The notes beneath the pieces were generated by a model. The model was not told the origin of the DNA. It made no database searches and saw nothing but the letters and a program-made list of their open reading frames with translations. DNA of 64,000 nt from Tabrizicola caldifontis (GTDB lineage Bacteria; Pseudomonadota; Alphaproteobacteria; Rhodobacterales; Rhodobacteraceae): positions 248,001 through 312,000 of the forward strand of contig NZ_SIJH01000001.1 of the NCBI RefSeq assembly GCF_004762095.1, given 5' to 3'. Below, piece after piece: positions 51,795 through 61,498 of this stretch. Each line of letters begins with the position of its first letter. The first letter of the stretch is position 1. Made by a program: the position numbers and the translations under genes.

Positions 51795-53168
51795 ATGAAG
51801 GTCGGCGACATTTCTTTCTGGTATGCCGATATCGGCCTGCCCTATCGCCGCGCGTCCCTTTCCGGCGATACCACGGCCGACGTGGCGATCATCGGGGCAG
51901 GATATACCGGCCTGTGGACGGCCTACTATCTGAAGAAAATTCAGCCGGCGCTGGACGTGCTGGTGATCGAGAAGGAATTCGCGGGCTTCGGCGCCTCGGG
52001 CCGAAATGGCGGCTGGCTAACCGGGGGCTTTGCCTGGAACCACCGGCGCTATCTGGAAGGATCCAGCGAACACCAGGTCCGCGCCATGGTCGAGGCTATG
52101 AACGGCACCGTGGACGAAGTGATCCGCGTGGCCGAGGCCGAGGGCATCGACGCCGACATCCACCGCACCGACGAGCTTATGGTGGCGACAAAGCCCGCGC
52201 AGGTCGCCCGGATGCAGGCCGAGGTCGCGCATCGCCGGCACTGGGGAGAAGAGGACAGGGTCTTCCAGATGAACGCCCGCGACCTTGCCGCGCGCATTCG
52301 TATCCCTGGCGCGCTGGGGGCCATGGTGGTGACGAACGTGGCGCGCATCCAGCCTGCGAAACTGGTGCGCGGCCTTGCCGACGCAGTAGAGCGTCTCGGG
52401 GTCCGGTTGGTCGAGGGGACGGCCGTCACCTCTTACGAAACAGGCCTTGTGACGACCGATCGGGGCATGGTGCGGGCCCCGCTGATCCTCCGCTGCACCG
52501 AAGGCTTCACGGCAGGCCTGCCGGGTCACAAACGCGAATGGCTGCCGATGAACTCGGCCCAGATCGCGACGGAACCGCTACCGGTCGAGCTCTGGGACCG
52601 GATAGGATGGCAAGGGCACGAGATCGTGGGCGATTTCGCCAACGCCTACTGCTATTGCCAGCGTACGCGCGAGGGGCGCATCACTGTGGGAGCACGCGGG
52701 GTGCCCTACCGGTTCGGATCCAGTCTCGACACCAACGGCGCGCCAGACCCCGAAACGATCCGCCGGCTGGTCGCGATCTTGCGCCGGCATTTCCCCGATG
52801 CAGGCGAAGCAAGGATCGACCATGCATGGTGCGGCGTCCTGGGTGTGCCGCGCGACTGGTGCGCAACGGTGGGTCTTGACCCGGCGACCGGCCTTGGCTG
52901 GGCGGGTGGCTATGTCGGGGTGGGCGTCTCGACCTCGAACCTTGCCGGACGCACGCTGGCGGATCTGGTGCTGGGGCGCGACACCGATCTTGTGCACCTT
53001 CCCTGGGTGAACCGCCGCGTCAGGGACTGGGAGCCGGAACCCTTCCGCTGGCTTGGCGTGCACGGCATGTATGCCCTGCTGAACGCCGCTGACAGGCGCG
53101 AGGACCGGGCCGGCGCGGGGCCGTCGAAGCTGGCAACCCTGGGCAACTGGCTGACCGGGCGCGGGTAG
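51795..53168 (+). CDS. FAD-dependent oxidoreductase (DAO family, PuuB-like)
   Basis: 457 aa. The N-terminal dinucleotide-binding motif VAIIGAGYTGLWTAYYLKK near residue 27, then GFGASGRNGGWLTGGFAW near 75 and the C-terminal GWAGGYVGVGVSTSNLAGRTLADL near 375 identify a D-amino-acid-oxidase-fold flavoprotein of the gamma-glutamylputrescine/glycine oxidase group. The amine substrate is unknown. Polyamine-making genes elsewhere in the window make a putrescine link attractive, but not proved. Start ATG 51795 lies just after the tRNA; the open frame upstream runs through the tRNA and is not coding. Confidence 0.85.
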   Translation: MKVGDISFWYADIGLPYRRASLSGDTTADVAIIGAGYTGLWTAYYLKKIQPALDVLVIEKEFAGFGASGRNGGWLTGGFAWNHRRYLEGSSEHQVRAMVEAMNGTVDEVIRVAEAEGIDADIHRTDELMVATKPAQVARMQAEVAHRRHWGEEDRVFQMNARDLAARIRIPGALGAMVVTNVARIQPAKLVRGLADAVERLGVRLVEGTAVTSYETGLVTTDRGMVRAPLILRCTEGFTAGLPGHKREWLPMNSAQIATEPLPVELWDRIGWQGHEIVGDFANAYCYCQRTREGRITVGARGVPYRFGSSLDTNGAPDPETIRRLVAILRRHFPDAGEARIDHAWCGVLGVPRDWCATVGLDPATGLGWAGGYVGVGVSTSNLAGRTLADLVLGRDTDLVHLPWVNRRVRDWEPEPFRWLGVHGMYALLNAADRREDRAGAGPSKLATLGNWLTGRG

Positions 53169-53238
53169 ATCACGAAGGGTTGATGTTGCCCGACACTTTG
53201 GCGCATGACAGAAAGGCCCCATGGCACGGGAGGACACG

Positions 53239-54558
53239 ATGCCGATGCACCGCCGTCAGGTTCTTGGCCTTGCGCTTGCCGCGCCAGCCCTGCTGCGCGT
53301 TCCGCCCGCCCTTGCGGCCGACAGGGCAGATGTCTCGCGCAAGGTTCTGCTGACCTGGCACAAGCTTGTTCTGGAACTGGTCCGCCATACCGCTACCTAT
53401 GTGCCCCCGGTGGCGGCCCGCGCCTTCGCATATGTCGGCATCACCGCGCACGAGGCGCTGTCATCCGGCAACCCTGCCCTGCGCAGTCTTGCCGGCCAGC
53501 TCAGCGATCTTTCCCCCTTGCCCGCACGCGCAAGCGGCGTCCATGACGAAGCTTGCGTCTTGCATGGCGCGCTTCAGGCGGTCGTAGGCGAACTGTTCGC
53601 CAACACAGGTCCGACCGGCCTGCGCGCCATGCAGGCGATGGGCCGCAAGATGGGAGAGACCGCAAGCACGGGGATCGACGGCGCGGTGGTGGCGCGCAGT
53701 GTCGCGCACGGGGAAGCCATTGCTGAGCGGATCCTTGCATGGGCTGCCGCCGACGGCGGCGCGGTGATCGAGAACATGGGCTTTCCCATGAATTACACCC
53801 CCGGCACCCGCCCGCAGGACTGGGTGCCTACGAACCTGATCCGTCTGCAACAGGCGCCTCTTCTGCCCGGGTGGTCGAATTGCCGGCCTTTTGCCCTGCC
53901 ATACTCGGACGCCTGCGATGCGCCGCCGCACCCCGATTACGACGAAGCGCCGGGATCCGCCTTCCACGACGCCGCGCTGGAGGTCTACGAGACCAGCCGC
54001 AACCTGACCCAGGACCAGAAACTGATCGCGCGGTTCTGGTCGGACGACCCGATGCTGACACCGACACCGGCCGGACACTGGATCTCGATCGTGCTGCAGA
54101 TCGCGGACCGCGACAGCCTGCCGGCAGAAGCGATCTCGGCCACGCTGGCAAAGCTGGGCGTGGCGCAGGCGGATGCGTTCATCTCGTGCTGGTCGACGAA
54201 ATTCAGGTACAACCTGCTGCGGCCGGTAACCTACATCAATCGCCACATCGACCCTTCCTGGGAACCCTTTCTCATCACCCCGCCGTTCCCGGAATACACG
54301 TCGGGCCATTCGACGCAGTCGGGGGCGGCAATGACCGTGCTGACCTCGGTTCTTGGCGAAGGGTTCGCCTTCGACGACGCGACGCACGAGGACGATGGCC
54401 TGCCGGTCCGCAGCTTCCCGTCCTTTGCCGCGGCGGCAGAAGAGGCTGCGATGTCCCGGCTTTACGGCGGCATCCATTTCCGCTTCGGCAACGAACGCGG
54501 CCTGGATCAGGGCCGCGCCGTGGGGGCCTATGCCGCCGCTCTGAAGACCGAGTCCTGA
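53239..54558 (+). CDS. Exported vanadium-dependent haloperoxidase-family protein (PAP2 fold)
   Basis: 439 aa. MPMHRRQVLGLALAAPALLRV with a cleavage site before DRADVSR is a Tat-like signal (twin Arg), so the protein acts in the periplasm. The PAP2/vanadate site is conserved: Lys and Arg in TKFRYNLLRPVTY near residue 327, TSGHS in PEYTSGHSTQSGA near 355, and Arg/His in SRLYGGIHFRFGNERG near 413. Such enzymes oxidise halides with H2O2 or act as phosphatases. An ATG at 53221 is a six-codon longer alternative. The stop overlaps the next gene's ATG as ATGA. The partner is a CRTAC1/ASPIC protein. Confidence 0.88.
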   Translation: MPMHRRQVLGLALAAPALLRVPPALAADRADVSRKVLLTWHKLVLELVRHTATYVPPVAARAFAYVGITAHEALSSGNPALRSLAGQLSDLSPLPARASGVHDEACVLHGALQAVVGELFANTGPTGLRAMQAMGRKMGETASTGIDGAVVARSVAHGEAIAERILAWAAADGGAVIENMGFPMNYTPGTRPQDWVPTNLIRLQQAPLLPGWSNCRPFALPYSDACDAPPHPDYDEAPGSAFHDAALEVYETSRNLTQDQKLIARFWSDDPMLTPTPAGHWISIVLQIADRDSLPAEAISATLAKLGVAQADAFISCWSTKFRYNLLRPVTYINRHIDPSWEPFLITPPFPEYTSGHSTQSGAAMTVLTSVLGEGFAFDDATHEDDGLPVRSFPSFAAAAEEAAMSRLYGGIHFRFGNERGLDQGRAVGAYAAALKTES

Positions 54559-56117
54559 TGCGCACCACGATTGCCCTGCTGGTCCTTGCCGGCCCTGCCC
54601 TGGCCGAGCCATCCGTTCCCGTCTTCGCCGACGAGACCGCAACAGCGGGCCTGACCACGATTTACCAGGGCGATTGGGAATACATGGTGGGCGGTGGTGT
54701 GGCCACCTTCGACTGCTCTGGTGACGGCTTTCCCGAAGTCTTTCTTTCCGGTGGCGCGGGGCCTTCGGGCCTTTATTGGAACCGCAGCCTGCAGGGCGGT
54801 CCGTTGACTTTCGAAAAGACGGACAGCATCGCGCTGGATGCCGTGCTGGGCGCCTATCCGCTGGACATCGACAGCGACGGGATGATGGACCTGGTGGTGC
54901 TGCGGCACGGGTCGAACCGGCTGATGCGGGGGCTCGGCGAGTGCCGGTTCGAGGATGCGACCGAGACCTGGGGCTTTGATGGCGGCGATGCCTGGTCCAC
55001 CGCCTTTGCCGCGATCTGGGAAAAGGGCCAGGACTGGCCGACCATCGCCATCGGCAACTACGTCGATCGTTACGAAGAGGCGTTTCCCTGGGGATCCTGC
55101 ACCGACAACTGGCTGCATCGCCCTGACGGCACCCGTTTTGCCCCGCCGATTGCGCTGACCCCATCCTTCTGCGCGCTGTCCATGATCTTCACCGACTGGA
55201 ACCGCTCGGGCCAGTGGGCGCTGCGGGTTTCGAACGACCGCGAATATTACAAGGGCGGGCAGGAACAGCTGTGGCACCTCGACCCGGGCCAGCCGCCGCG
55301 CCTTTATACCGAGGCCGAGGGCTGGAAGCGTCTGCGCATCTGGGGAATGGGGATCGCCACGGCGGATGTGAACCTGGACGGCTACCCAGACTACTACCTG
55401 ACCTCGATGGCCGACAACAAGTTGCAGTTCCTGAAGGATCCGGCCTCGGGCAAACCCGATTATGCCGATCTGGCCTTCCGTTCTGGCGTCACGGCCCATC
55501 GGCCCTATACCGGGGGCGACCTGCGCCCCTCGACAGCCTGGCATCCGCAGTTCGCCGACGTGAACAACGACGGGCGGCTGGACATTTTCGTGGCCAAGGG
55601 CAACGTCGCGAAGATGCCGGATTTTGCCGAGCGCGACCCGAACAACCTGCTGCTTTCCGCCGGGGACGGCACCTTCGTCGAAGCCGGGGACCGTGCAGGC
55701 ATCGCCAGCATGTCCGTTGCGCGCGGGGCACAGGTCGTGGACCTGAACCTCGACGGCCTTCTGGACCTGGTGGTGGTCAACCGGTGGACCCCGGCCGAAG
55801 TCTGGCGTCAGACCGGCGAACCCGGCGGCAACTGGGTGCAGGTCAGGCTGGAACAGGCCGGACCCAATCGCAACGCCATCGGATCGGTGGTGGAAATCCG
55901 TCGTGGCGCTGCGGTCGAGCGCCACGAGATCGCCGCGGGGGGCGGGCACGTCTCGGGCTCTGTCGGCTGGCTGCATTTCGGTCTTGGCGCGGCAGAGCGG
56001 GCGGAATTGCGGGTCATCTGGCCCGACGGGACGGCGGGCGACTGGCATTCGCTTCCTGCCGGCACCTTCCACATCCTGGGCCCCGATACAGGGGCCAGAC
56101 CTTGGACGCCGGGTTGA
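54558..56117 (+). CDS. Exported CRTAC1/FG-GAP and ASPIC/UnbV repeat protein
   Basis: 519 aa, ATG overlapping the haloperoxidase stop. Sec signal peptide at 1-18 (TIALLVLAGPALA). Repeated DxDxDG-type calcium loops: FDCSGDGFPEV near 45, IDSDGMMDLVV near 105, DVNLDGYPDYY near 275, DVNNDGRLDIFV near 330 and DLNLDGLLDLVV near 395, i.e. an FG-GAP/VCBS beta propeller. The C-terminal ASPIC/UnbV domain (about 420-510) has [14 protein letters not shown] and GGGHVSGSVGWLHFGLG. No enzyme motif; probably a secreted binding or cell-surface partner of the haloperoxidase. The pairing is known from other bacteria, but no shared function has been shown as far as I know. Confidence 0.88.
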   Translation: MRTTIALLVLAGPALAEPSVPVFADETATAGLTTIYQGDWEYMVGGGVATFDCSGDGFPEVFLSGGAGPSGLYWNRSLQGGPLTFEKTDSIALDAVLGAYPLDIDSDGMMDLVVLRHGSNRLMRGLGECRFEDATETWGFDGGDAWSTAFAAIWEKGQDWPTIAIGNYVDRYEEAFPWGSCTDNWLHRPDGTRFAPPIALTPSFCALSMIFTDWNRSGQWALRVSNDREYYKGGQEQLWHLDPGQPPRLYTEAEGWKRLRIWGMGIATADVNLDGYPDYYLTSMADNKLQFLKDPASGKPDYADLAFRSGVTAHRPYTGGDLRPSTAWHPQFADVNNDGRLDIFVAKGNVAKMPDFAERDPNNLLLSAGDGTFVEAGDRAGIASMSVARGAQVVDLNLDGLLDLVVVNRWTPAEVWRQTGEPGGNWVQVRLEQAGPNRNAIGSVVEIRRGAAVERHEIAAGGGHVSGSVGWLHFGLGAAERAELRVIWPDGTAGDWHSLPAGTFHILGPDTGARPWTPG

Positions 56118-56586
56118 CGCGAATCAGGGCGAACATCACGCGCGGCCTGCGCGGCACCCTTGCAGATTGAACTCATGCCACCCCTGCAACCCTGAATATT
56201 CGGGGCGCATGCTGCTTGCCGCCGCCACAACAGGGCTTTCGGCGGAGGCTGTTGATTTCAGGCAACAATGCCGGAGCCGATCCGAGACGCAATAGCGAAG
56301 CCGCCCGGTATGGGCAGACAGGCCAGTCGAACGAATTATTCATATGATACAGAATGTTACCAGATATCGAAAAAACTCTGCTCTCTGACGCTGCCGAAAT
56401 CCGGCCGCCCTGATGCAATGCGATGCGCCAATTGGAGTGCCAAGGCCATGTTTCCTGCGGACCGGCCGGGTCTGTATCCTGATTGCCAATTGCAGACGTC
56501 CCCACTGGGCACTGCCCTTGGTTCGTCGGGACGATGCTCTCGCTACAAGTGCCGGACAGGACATAAAGCAGACCGGACCACACAAG
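56118..56586. other. Non-coding gap upstream of the Ser/Thr kinase gene
   Basis: 469 bases without a supported gene. An AT-rich patch around 56330-56390 stands out from the GC-rich surroundings and contains TATGAT (56343-56348), a possible -10, but no good -35. CCAATTGG and GCAATTGC hexamer-like palindromes occur at about 56432 and 56484. Open frames through it have no conserved features. Confidence 0.4.
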
Positions 56587-57705
56587 ATGCAAGGCCCGAC
56601 ACGGATCGACCCCAGCCTGGACCCGGACGGATATCACGCCGGCCCGGAAGTCTTTGCTGACGATCTGAAACCGGGCACAAGGCTTCTGGATGGTCAATAC
56701 ACAATTCTGGGCTTCCTGAACTCTGGCGGTTTCGGAATCACCTATCTTGCCAAGGATTCGCTTGATCGCACCGTCGTCATCAAGGAGTGCTTCCCCAACA
56801 CGCTCTGCCGAAGGTCCGGCGGAATCGTCCGCGCCCGCTCGCGCAAGCATTCGGGGGATTTCCGCGGCTTCGTCCAGGGCTTCATCGACGAGGCCCGCAG
56901 CCTTGCCCGCCTGGTGCATCCGAACATTGTCGGCGTGCATCAGGTGTTCGAGGACAATGACACGGCCTACATGGCAATCGATTTCATCAACGGCAAGGAT
57001 CTGCACGACATCCTGGAATCGACCGACCAGGCCTTCACGCCGGAAGAAACCGTGGCGATGTTGAAGAAGTTACTCAGTGCGGTCGATTTCATTCACCAGG
57101 CGGGGATCCTGCATCGCGACATCTCGCCCGACAACATCCTGATCGACCAGACCGGAAACCCGGTGCTGATCGACTTTGGCGCGGCCAGCGAACAGGTCAT
57201 GCGGGCCACGCGGGTGCTGACAGGACGACGCGTCGTGAAGGACGGCTATTCGCCGCAGGAATTCTACCTGTCGGGCGCGCAGCAAAGCCCGGCAAGCGAC
57301 CTTTATGCGCTGGGTGCCACCTTCTACCATGTGATCAGTGGCAAGGCAGCGCCCGAAAGCCAGCGGCGTCTGGCGATGGTGGCGGAAGGTTCGTCCGACC
57401 CCTGCCAGCCGCTTTCGGGCCGCTTCCCTGGCTATCCTGCCGGCTTTCTGGAATCGATCGACAAGGCAATGCGCGTGATGCCGCGCTACCGGCTTCAAAG
57501 CGCCCAGGAATGGCTGGACATGATAGAACAGGGTGAAAAGGGCCTGTTTACCCACGCACCCGAACCGTTGGCGCGGCCAGACACCGCGCACATCGCAGCC
57601 GCGCGCCGTCCCGGCTTTCTTGAAGCGAACAAGGGCTATCTTCTTGGCGCGGGGATCGCCCTTGCCCTGATGGCGCTGGTCGCGGCATGGAAGCTGCTGA
57701 CCTGA
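56587..57705 (+). CDS. Membrane-anchored Ser/Thr protein kinase (Hanks type)
   Basis: 372 aa. Complete kinase domain (about 37-310): P-loop GGFGITYLAKD near 47-57, ATP lysine K66 in VVIKE, catalytic loop HRDISPDNIL at 176 with Asp178, metal-binding IDFGAAS at D196, and SPQEFYLSGAQQSPASDLYALG as the activation/APE region. A single transmembrane helix at the extreme C-terminus (about 350-370) makes it tail-anchored with almost no extracellular sensor. It follows the CRTAC1 gene with a 469-base gap and converges on nnrD. Substrate unknown; a link to haloperoxidase control would be inference. Confidence 0.88.
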   Translation: MQGPTRIDPSLDPDGYHAGPEVFADDLKPGTRLLDGQYTILGFLNSGGFGITYLAKDSLDRTVVIKECFPNTLCRRSGGIVRARSRKHSGDFRGFVQGFIDEARSLARLVHPNIVGVHQVFEDNDTAYMAIDFINGKDLHDILESTDQAFTPEETVAMLKKLLSAVDFIHQAGILHRDISPDNILIDQTGNPVLIDFGAASEQVMRATRVLTGRRVVKDGYSPQEFYLSGAQQSPASDLYALGATFYHVISGKAAPESQRRLAMVAEGSSDPCQPLSGRFPGYPAGFLESIDKAMRVMPRYRLQSAQEWLDMIEQGEKGLFTHAPEPLARPDTAHIAAARRPGFLEANKGYLLGAGIALALMALVAAWKLLT

Positions 57706-59815: not shown

Positions 59816-59869
59816 ACCGGCCCCCCAAGGGCCTGAACCATCAACCACTCAATCGTGAAAGGCAGTCAG

Positions 59870-61279
59870 ATGAGCGCCGTTGCCAAGGCTCTGAAACTGA
59901 TGAAGGACGAGGAGGTCGAATACGTCGACATCCGCTTCACCGACCCTAAGGGCAAGCTCCAGCATGTGACGCTGGTCGCGGACCTGGTGGACGAGGATTT
60001 CTTCGAGGAAGGCTTCATGTTCGACGGCTCGTCGATCGCGGGCTGGAAGTCGATCGACCAGTCCGACATGAAGCTGATCCCGGATGCGGCCTCGGTCTAT
60101 ATCGACCCGTTCTACGCCGAAAAGACCATGGCCGTGCACTGCAACGTGGTCGAGCCCGACACCGGCGAGGCCTACAGCCGCTGTCCACGCCAGACCGCGC
60201 TGAAGGCGGAAGCCTACCTGAAATCCTCGGGCATCGGTGACGCGGCCTATTTCGGCCCCGAGGCCGAATTCTTCATCTTCGACGACGTGCGCTATTCGGT
60301 GACGCCGCGCAAGGTGGCCTACGAGATCGACGCCGAGGCCGCCGCTTGGAACACCGACACCGTGACCGAAGGCGGCAACTACGGCCACCGCGCGGGCCAC
60401 AAGGGTGGCTATTTCCCGGTCAATCCGATCGACGAGGCCCAGGACATCCGCGGCGAAATGCTTTCGACCATGAAGCGGATGGGCATGAAGGTGGACAAGC
60501 ACCACCACGAGGTCGCGACCTGCCAGCACGAACTGGGCATGATCTTCGGCGGGCTGGTGGAGCAGGCCGACAACATCCAGAAGTACAAGTACGTCATTCA
60601 CAACGTGGCCCACGCCTACGGCAAGACCGTGACCTTCATGCCGAAGCCGATGAAGGGCGACAACGGCTCGGGGATGCACGTCAACATGTCGATCTGGAAG
60701 GGCGGCAAGCCCTTGTTCGCGGGCGACAAGTATGCCGACCTTTCCCAGGAGGCCCTGTGGTTCATCGGCGGCATCCTGAAGCATGCCAAGGCCCTGAACG
60801 CGCTGACCAACCCCTCGACCAACAGCTACAAGCGGCTGATCCCCGGGTTCGAAGCGCCGGTGCTGCGTGCCTATTCGGCCCGCAATCGGTCGGGTTGTGT
60901 CCGTATTCCGTGGACCGAAAGCCCGAAGGCCAAGCGTGTGGAAGCCCGCTTCCCCGATCCGTCGGCGAACCCCTATCTGGCATTCTCGGCCCTGTTGATG
61001 GCGGGTCTGGACGGCATCAAGAACAAGATCGACCCGGGTCCGGCATCGGATAAGGATCTTTATGACTTGCCGCCGGAAGAACTGGCCGAAATCCCGACCG
61101 TCTGCGGTTCGCTGCGCGAGGCACTGGAGTCGCTGGAAGCCGATCATGACTTCCTGCTGGTGGGCGATGTGTTCACCAAGGACCAGCTGGAAGCCTACAT
61201 GGCGCTGAAATGGGAAGAGGTTTACGCCTACGAGCATACGCCCCACCCGGTCGAATACCAGATGTACTACTCCTGCTAA
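59870..61279 (+). CDS. glnA: Glutamine synthetase type I
   Basis: 469 aa, the GS-I-beta length. Joins ammonia and glutamate with [19 protein letters not shown] near residue 20, [13 protein letters not shown] near 47, [15 protein letters not shown] near 128, [13 protein letters not shown] near 170 and the [17 protein letters not shown] block near 310 are all present. Adenylylation Tyr398 is in [10 protein letters not shown], so activity is probably regulated by GlnE. ATG at 59870; an ATG five codons upstream is unlikely. A TTCG-loop terminator follows. Confidence 0.97.
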
Positions 61280-61302
61280 GTCCTTCGGACACAGGGGCAA
61301 AG

Positions 61303-61326
61303 GGGCGCCTTCGGGCGCCCTTTCTT
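61303..61326 (+). terminator. Intrinsic terminator of glnBA
   Basis: GGGCGCC/GGCGCCC stem (61303-61309 with 61314-61320), TTCG loop, then TTTCTT. A classic intrinsic terminator 24 bases after the glnA stop. The remainder of 61327-61498 holds nothing that I could identify. Confidence 0.9.
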
Positions 61327-61498
61327 CATTCAGGCATGCGGACGCTGGCCACCCTGCTACATGGGTCCGACGACACCGTCCGACCCATCGTCCAGATGGT
61401 GCGGCAGGCACGAGATTGGGAATCCGCGCGGTCGGAATGACCTAAGGCACCAGACCTTCGCCGGATCCGGCCAGAGGACCGCAAGACCCCGAGGCCAG

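Follow-up and report, generated by a model that had tools for sequence, protein, structure and literature searches.

A putative vanadium-dependent peroxidase obligately linked to a CRTAC1/ASPIC propeller in Tabrizicola caldifontis and its relatives

Introduction

MauG and MbnH oxidise their protein partners in an H2O2-dependent manner. As in MauG with methylamine dehydrogenase and MbnH with MbnP, the locus described here would encode an H2O2-using peroxidase beside an exported partner with conserved aromatic residues, and those of its relatives that lack a vanadium haloperoxidase (VHPO) carry a MauG/MbnH-like enzyme. Unlike in the MauG and MbnH pairs, the peroxidase is here an unrelated vanadium/PAP2 protein, and modification of the partner is a prediction.

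For the enzyme itself the comparison is with Zg-VIPO1 of Zobellia galactanivorans (PDB 4cit, 4usz), to which it is homologous along its whole length (40% identity across 367 aligned residues) and which has the same fold (Z 51.5) and identical vanadate-site motifs; in the window protein, however, a Ser stands in the place of the Asp in the CWDEK of Zg-VIPO1, and the enzyme is obligately paired with an ASPIC protein. That partner resembles CRTAC1 (9etn) in propeller and ASPIC domain across most of its length, at about 20% identity, but unlike CRTAC1 it is bacterial, linked to a peroxidase and marked by an invariant W40 and Y231 together with four invariant cysteines. CRTAC1-family genes also flank hydrazine-synthase homologues, and the gamma subunit of hydrazine synthase is CCP/MauG-like (PMC12758564). 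That neighbourhood likewise sets a CRTAC1-type FG-GAP gene beside genes for CCP/MauG-like haem proteins, but it belongs to another enzyme complex and is without a haloperoxidase (PMC12758564).

The putative vanadium-dependent peroxidase

The window, by which we mean the whole stretch of 64,000 nucleotides that was analysed (Tabrizicola caldifontis, NZ_SIJH01000001.1, positions 248,001 to 312,000), holds the gene of the enzyme with the following features.

53239-54558, + strand: VHPO-type (PAP2) protein of 439 aa with a twin-Arg signal; PAP2 above the Pfam cut-off
53239-53337 (extent approximate), + strand: Tat-like signal region MPMHRRQVLGLALAAPALLRVPPALAADR, read in the sequence
54199-54225, + strand: vanadate-binding motif K-x6-R-P (K321, R328, P329), invariant in a 51-sequence alignment
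54295-54312, + strand: vanadate/catalytic motif Y-T-S-G-H-S (S355, G356 and H357 invariant; 51-sequence alignment and 94 orthologues)
54454-54477, + strand: S-R-x3-G-I-H motif (R407; H413 the equivalent of the axial vanadate ligand, by alignment)

The longest open frame runs from 53221 to 54558, and the start at 53239 (MPMHRRQVLG...) agrees with the orthologues. A reading of this DNA from its letters alone (hereafter the sequence-only reading) had described a haloperoxidase gene with the full set of PAP2/vanadate residues and a twin-Arg signal, and both are present: the motifs K-x6-RP, SGH and SR-x3-GxH are complete in the window VHPO and in 94 of 94 orthologues, and a twin-Arg motif (HRRQVLG) stands ahead of a hydrophobic stretch, as in a putative Tat substrate. 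The RR pair occurs in 63 of the 94 orthologues and is missing from many of those in Rhizobiales, so the export route is no family-wide feature.

Acid phosphatases of the PAP2 type have the motif HxxxD, with an Asp four residues after the axial His. The PAP2 domain of the window protein, together with the PhoB-like regulator found 5' of the gene in a few Phyllobacteriaceae loci, could speak for a periplasmic phosphatase rather than a peroxidase, a reading that we regard as very improbable. The residue at H413+4 is Gly in the window VHPO and Ala, Gly or Ser, never Asp, in 94/94 orthologues, and the Zobellia iodoperoxidase likewise lacks the Asp in the alignment. The AF2 model (pLDDT 90.7) has 4cit, the Zobellia iodoperoxidase, as its closest solved structure (VIA Z 51.5, rmsd 2.3, 397 aligned residues), while acid phosphatases reach only Z ~16, and phmmer matches the sequence to 4cit at E 1.9e-69. 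A phosphatase-only active site is thus disfavoured, and motifs and predicted fold put the window enzyme, a putative vanadium-dependent peroxidase, in the iodoperoxidase branch of bacteria. As a separate observation, two giant exported-type proteins of 2911 and 3433 aa (L114:2632-11364 and L139:593-10891) hold an internal haloperoxidase-like PAP2 domain surrounded by Ig, cadherin and LVIVD domains.

The CRTAC1/ASPIC propeller

54558-56117, + strand: CRTAC1/ASPIC protein of 519 aa with Sec signal, FG-GAP beta-propeller and C-terminal UnbV_ASPIC (Pfam)
55875-56063, + strand: UnbV_ASPIC domain, residues 440-502 (Pfam)

The second protein begins with a Sec-type signal, MRTTIALLVLAGPALA, and has FG-GAP_3 and UnbV_ASPIC both above the Pfam cut-offs. 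Five DxDxDG-like loops (DCSGDG, DIDSDG, DVNLDG, DVNNDG and DLNLDG), putative calcium-binding sites, and a degenerate one (DWNRSG) can be seen in the sequence, which bears out the earlier description of an exported protein with five such loops and an ASPIC domain. The AF2 model (pLDDT 90.6) places mouse CRTAC1 (9etn) as the closest solved structure, at VIA Z 37.2 over 449 residues, with the ADAM22-bound LGI1 propeller and the fungal aldos-2-ulose dehydratase among those that follow; Foldseek also lists a Psathyrella lectin. The succession of FG-GAP repeats and UnbV_ASPIC, the signal sequence and the likeness to 9etn place the protein in the CRTAC1/ASPIC family. The propeller signal sequences, as read, show neither a lipobox nor an anchor.

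Coupling and linkage of the two genes

54556-54560, + strand: TGATG, in which the VHPO stop and the ASPIC start share one base (sequence)

The two genes do overlap, as had been noted, though by the single base of TGATG and not by the four-base ATGA first described; among 92 relatives the latter (gap -4) is the commonest arrangement, with 28 cases, there are 19 cases at -1, and the gap is at most 8 nt in 72. An ASPIC gene adjoins the VHPO gene in 80 of the 80 best homologous loci of the genome collection, and in a family sample of one genome per genus every VHPO orthologue on a sufficiently long contig is paired with ASPIC. Haloperoxidases below about 40% identity, in contrast, are without an adjacent ASPIC gene in 19/19 genomes, most of which have no ASPIC gene at all. 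Random association of the two families is thereby excluded (80/80 linked versus 0/19). The pair is mostly an alphaproteobacterial feature in the class sample; G748, a genome from a different class of the phylum, has the reversed order ASPIC-VHPO. SusC/SusD loci with ASPIC proteins of ~1100 aa and a VHPO (L111, L113) occur in Gemmatimonadota and in Bacteroidota, the latter sampled through plasmid records only: Gemmatirosa (Gemmatimonadota) has the order SusD-ASPIC-VHPO-ASPIC-SusC, in which the VHPO is flanked by two long ASPIC proteins with SusD and a TonB-type receptor nearby, and Hymenobacter (Bacteroidota) has SusC-SusD-ASPIC-x-VHPO-fucosidase-GH3 and a VHPO split in two frames. A record labelled Exiguobacterium profundum (MAG; L031) holds an alphaproteobacterial VHPO-ASPIC locus, and its label is probably wrong.

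The Rosetta-stone test yielded no fusion of VHPO with ASPIC; in Rhizobium and G474, the domains joined to VHPO in giant proteins are Ig, cadherin and LVIVD. A correlation of VHPO and ASPIC tree distances (r 0.77) is confounded by shared descent and was set aside as evidence, and a promoter and terminator scan gave results at chance level.

We consider it very probable that VHPO and propeller form a functional unit. The sequence-only reading had drawn the same conclusion from coupling and matching export; the conclusion stands on the linkage, the coupling, the joint movement described below and the export of both proteins, but the export is not matching, because the window VHPO is Tat-type and the ASPIC protein Sec-type, and many Rhizobiales VHPOs lack the RR. 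As had been presumed, no joint mechanism of a haloperoxidase with CRTAC1/ASPIC, nor a xylose-isomerase or FG-GAP/xylose link, was found in the open-access literature, and the two proteins would seem to make up a so far undescribed system of protein partners driven by H2O2.

A haem peroxidase beside propellers without VHPO

Propellers without a VHPO adjoin a ROK repressor gene and xylFHG (ROK-xylFHGBA loci) and have next to them, in convergent orientation, a gene for a MauG/MbnH-like di-haem peroxidase. A MauG-like orthologue lies within 8 kb in 56 of 79 VHPO-less ASPIC loci, and within 2.5 kb in 53; in 45, xylA too is found at a distance of up to 15 kb. By orthologue search across 149 genera, 62 have both propeller and MauG-like peroxidase, 11 the propeller only, one the peroxidase only and 75 neither (p 5e-29). 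At least four of the 11 propeller-only genomes (G064, G098, G099 and G125) have a long SusD-type ASPIC protein, as indicated by the length of the frame and by similarity that is weak or absent, and the peroxidase-less genomes G017, G057 and G120 have a MauG paralogue elsewhere in the genome. None of the 13 genomes with a VHPO-linked propeller in this sample carries a MauG-like orthologue, and none of 94 VHPO-ASPIC loci has a MauG-like peroxidase nearby. Classing the window pair itself as MauG/MbnH-type was rejected, the enzyme being PAP2-type rather than di-haem, and the window's genome has no match to CCP_MauG at E 1e-12. In a side observation (L091-L108, L172, L173 and the 149-genome sample), a ROK-CRTAC1 gene pair divergent from xylFHGBA, with the MauG-like peroxidase gene convergent, recurs in many Rhodobacteraceae genera; this set is apparently a conserved, undescribed accessory of the xylose locus.

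These loci bear on the proposal, made in the sequence-only reading, that the propeller tethers the haloperoxidase or serves as its calcium-dependent chaperone. Obligate linkage, gene coupling and the calcium loops would suit such a dedicated helper, but the same propeller, with 103 core residues conserved between VHPO-paired and VHPO-less forms, occurs without VHPO in most genera, where it can stand beside the MauG-like peroxidase, and its signal sequences reveal neither lipobox nor anchor, which makes the proposal quite improbable. The window VHPO is moreover Tat-type, and the Tat route carries proteins that are already folded. Fournier and colleagues reportedly produced the Zobellia iodoperoxidase recombinantly in 2014 without any partner of this kind.

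The xylose-locus context

Neighbour clustering with confirmed family names revealed xylB-xylA-VHPO-ASPIC operons in 15 loci, with a xylA-VHPO gap of -16 to +15 nt. Among the 80 loci, xylA, xylB or xylF lies within 6 kb of the pair in 26 and a sugar ABC or ROK gene in 10 more; the others comprise 15 of the window's clade with FAD oxidase and kinase, 15 Rhizobiaceae loci with LysE/DoxX and 14 with none of these. In five relatives the pair has xylA on one side and an L-glyceraldehyde-3-phosphate reductase gene on the other, and in G748 it closes the run xylA-xylF-xylGH-ASPIC-VHPO. Mapped onto the tree of VHPO, the xyl context requires 12 changes, at least five of them forced by well-supported branches, and therefore the pair has repeatedly joined or left xyl loci. 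The window's genome has an otherwise collinear xyl locus on a different contig, in which the pair is absent and no remnants of it were found; with this locus intact but pair-less, both genes must have moved as one unit.

Two propeller residues that follow the peroxidase

54675-54677, + strand: codon of propeller W40, kept in 150/150 propellers with a peroxidase and 1/6 without
55248-55250, + strand: codon of propeller Y231, kept in 150/150 with a peroxidase and 1/6 without

Six propellers come from genomes with neither VHPO nor MauG-like peroxidase. Among 100 columns conserved in both groups, W40, Y231 and N362 are those most often lost in these six. W40 and Y231 occur together in 150/150 peroxidase-associated propellers versus 0/6 peroxidase-less ones, a pattern that comes from only two independent losses; moreover G042, which belongs to these six, has diverged overall and retains 68/103 core residues. 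Propellers with a MauG-like gene elsewhere in the genome retain both residues, and several VHPO-specific residues (M43, E229) lie near them in sequence. In a propeller tree built without the W40/Y231 columns, the VHPO-paired propellers form one clade (SH-aLRT 98-100), sister to the peroxidase-less ones, and both lie inside a MauG-associated background. Since the two are sister clades, loss of the haem enzyme appears to have come before the arrival of the vanadium enzyme.

Proposed role and the main alternative

The data thus contain obligate linkage, mutual exclusion of two peroxidases, a xylose-locus context and the co-loss of W40/Y231 with the peroxidase. The reading that we prefer is that peroxidase and propeller form a periplasmic unit, with a vanadium enzyme that replaced a haem enzyme and perhaps oxidises the propeller; taken whole, we give it an even chance. 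That the vanadium enzyme took the place of the MauG-like di-haem peroxidase is rather probable, whereas the propeller as the oxidised target of the peroxidase, an idea borrowed from the MauG and MbnH systems, is a possibility with the balance somewhat against it. More tentatively still, the VHPO may be a protein-modifying successor to the MauG-like peroxidase that uses H2O2 and halide to oxidise or cross-link W40/Y231 of the propeller, which would thereby mature into a protein that handles sugars, perhaps as a catalyst. Stepwise, a periplasmic peroxidase would use H2O2 (with halide for the vanadium enzyme), the propeller would by analogy with MauG and MbnH be oxidised by its peroxidase at or near W40/Y231 and thereby matured, and the mature propeller would help to acquire or oxidise pentoses or oligosaccharides. 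Counted against this explanation are the small number of independent losses behind the W40/Y231 pattern, the divergence of G042, the MauG paralogues of G017, G057 and G120, the MauG-like gene, which is convergent and not co-transcribed with ASPIC, and the position of the pair outside xyl loci in the window's clade and in Rhizobiaceae.

In the chief competing explanation both proteins act on a substrate outside themselves: the propeller would bind a glycan (xylan/lignin-carbohydrate) and an oxidant from the peroxidase, hypohalous acid or other, would attack it and so feed the xylose pathway. The xyl-locus context of the pair, a GH43 gene in the Roseinatronobacter locus, the SusC/SusD sets of Gemmatirosa and Hymenobacter (the latter with fucosidase-GH3) and a propeller fold close to aldos-2-ulose dehydratase and fungal lectins all agree with it. 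Alone, however, it leaves the co-loss of W40/Y231 unexplained, unless these two residues make contacts; both proteins, moreover, appear to be periplasmic, with no outer-membrane export found, and hypohalous acid diffusing freely in the periplasm would be toxic. We regard this alternative as rather unlikely.

Bacterial CRTAC1/ASPIC proteins are widespread, and the present results connect them with this VHPO branch, with xylose loci and with a MauG-like peroxidase. They name two propeller residues whose presence follows the peroxidase, by which the role of a family that spans bacteria to man (human CRTAC1) becomes directly testable, and they suggest that in nature vanadium chemistry has taken over from haem chemistry within one job.

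Neighbours of the pair in the Tabrizicola clade

51795-53168, + strand: FAD-dependent oxidoreductase (DAO), upstream neighbour of VHPO (Pfam, neighbour clustering)
56587-57705, + strand: Ser/Thr-type kinase with a C-terminal membrane segment (Pkinase domain by Pfam; hydrophobic segment seen in the sequence)

The FAD oxidoreductase gene lies a few dozen bases 5' of VHPO in about 14 loci and is conserved only in the window's clade; its product, which has no signal sequence, could be an H2O2 source in that clade, and as a general source it was rejected because it is clade-specific. Together with the enzyme family, such an oxidase would fit a pair that disposes of H2O2 or generates halogen species that kill microbes or destroy signals, with the propeller a passive accessory. 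That role is improbable: it leaves the obligate pairing, the MauG-like exchange and the xyl context unexplained, and the oxidase, besides having no signal sequence, is confined to one clade.

The kinase gene, with its ATG at 56587, follows 469 bases past the ASPIC stop and encodes a C-terminal hydrophobic segment, in agreement with the earlier description. It was rejected as a component of the system, since its adjacency is limited to the Tabrizicola clade and it is therefore unlikely to be part of it. Further along the window, an ORF of 520 aa without Pfam or NCBIfam match (59849-61411, - strand) has opposite it an ORF of 474 aa (59855-61279). In four Phyllobacteriaceae loci (L034, L037, L057 and L077), genes for a PhoB-like response regulator and an ABC ATPase lie directly 5' of VHPO-ASPIC, an arrangement that may point to phosphate control.
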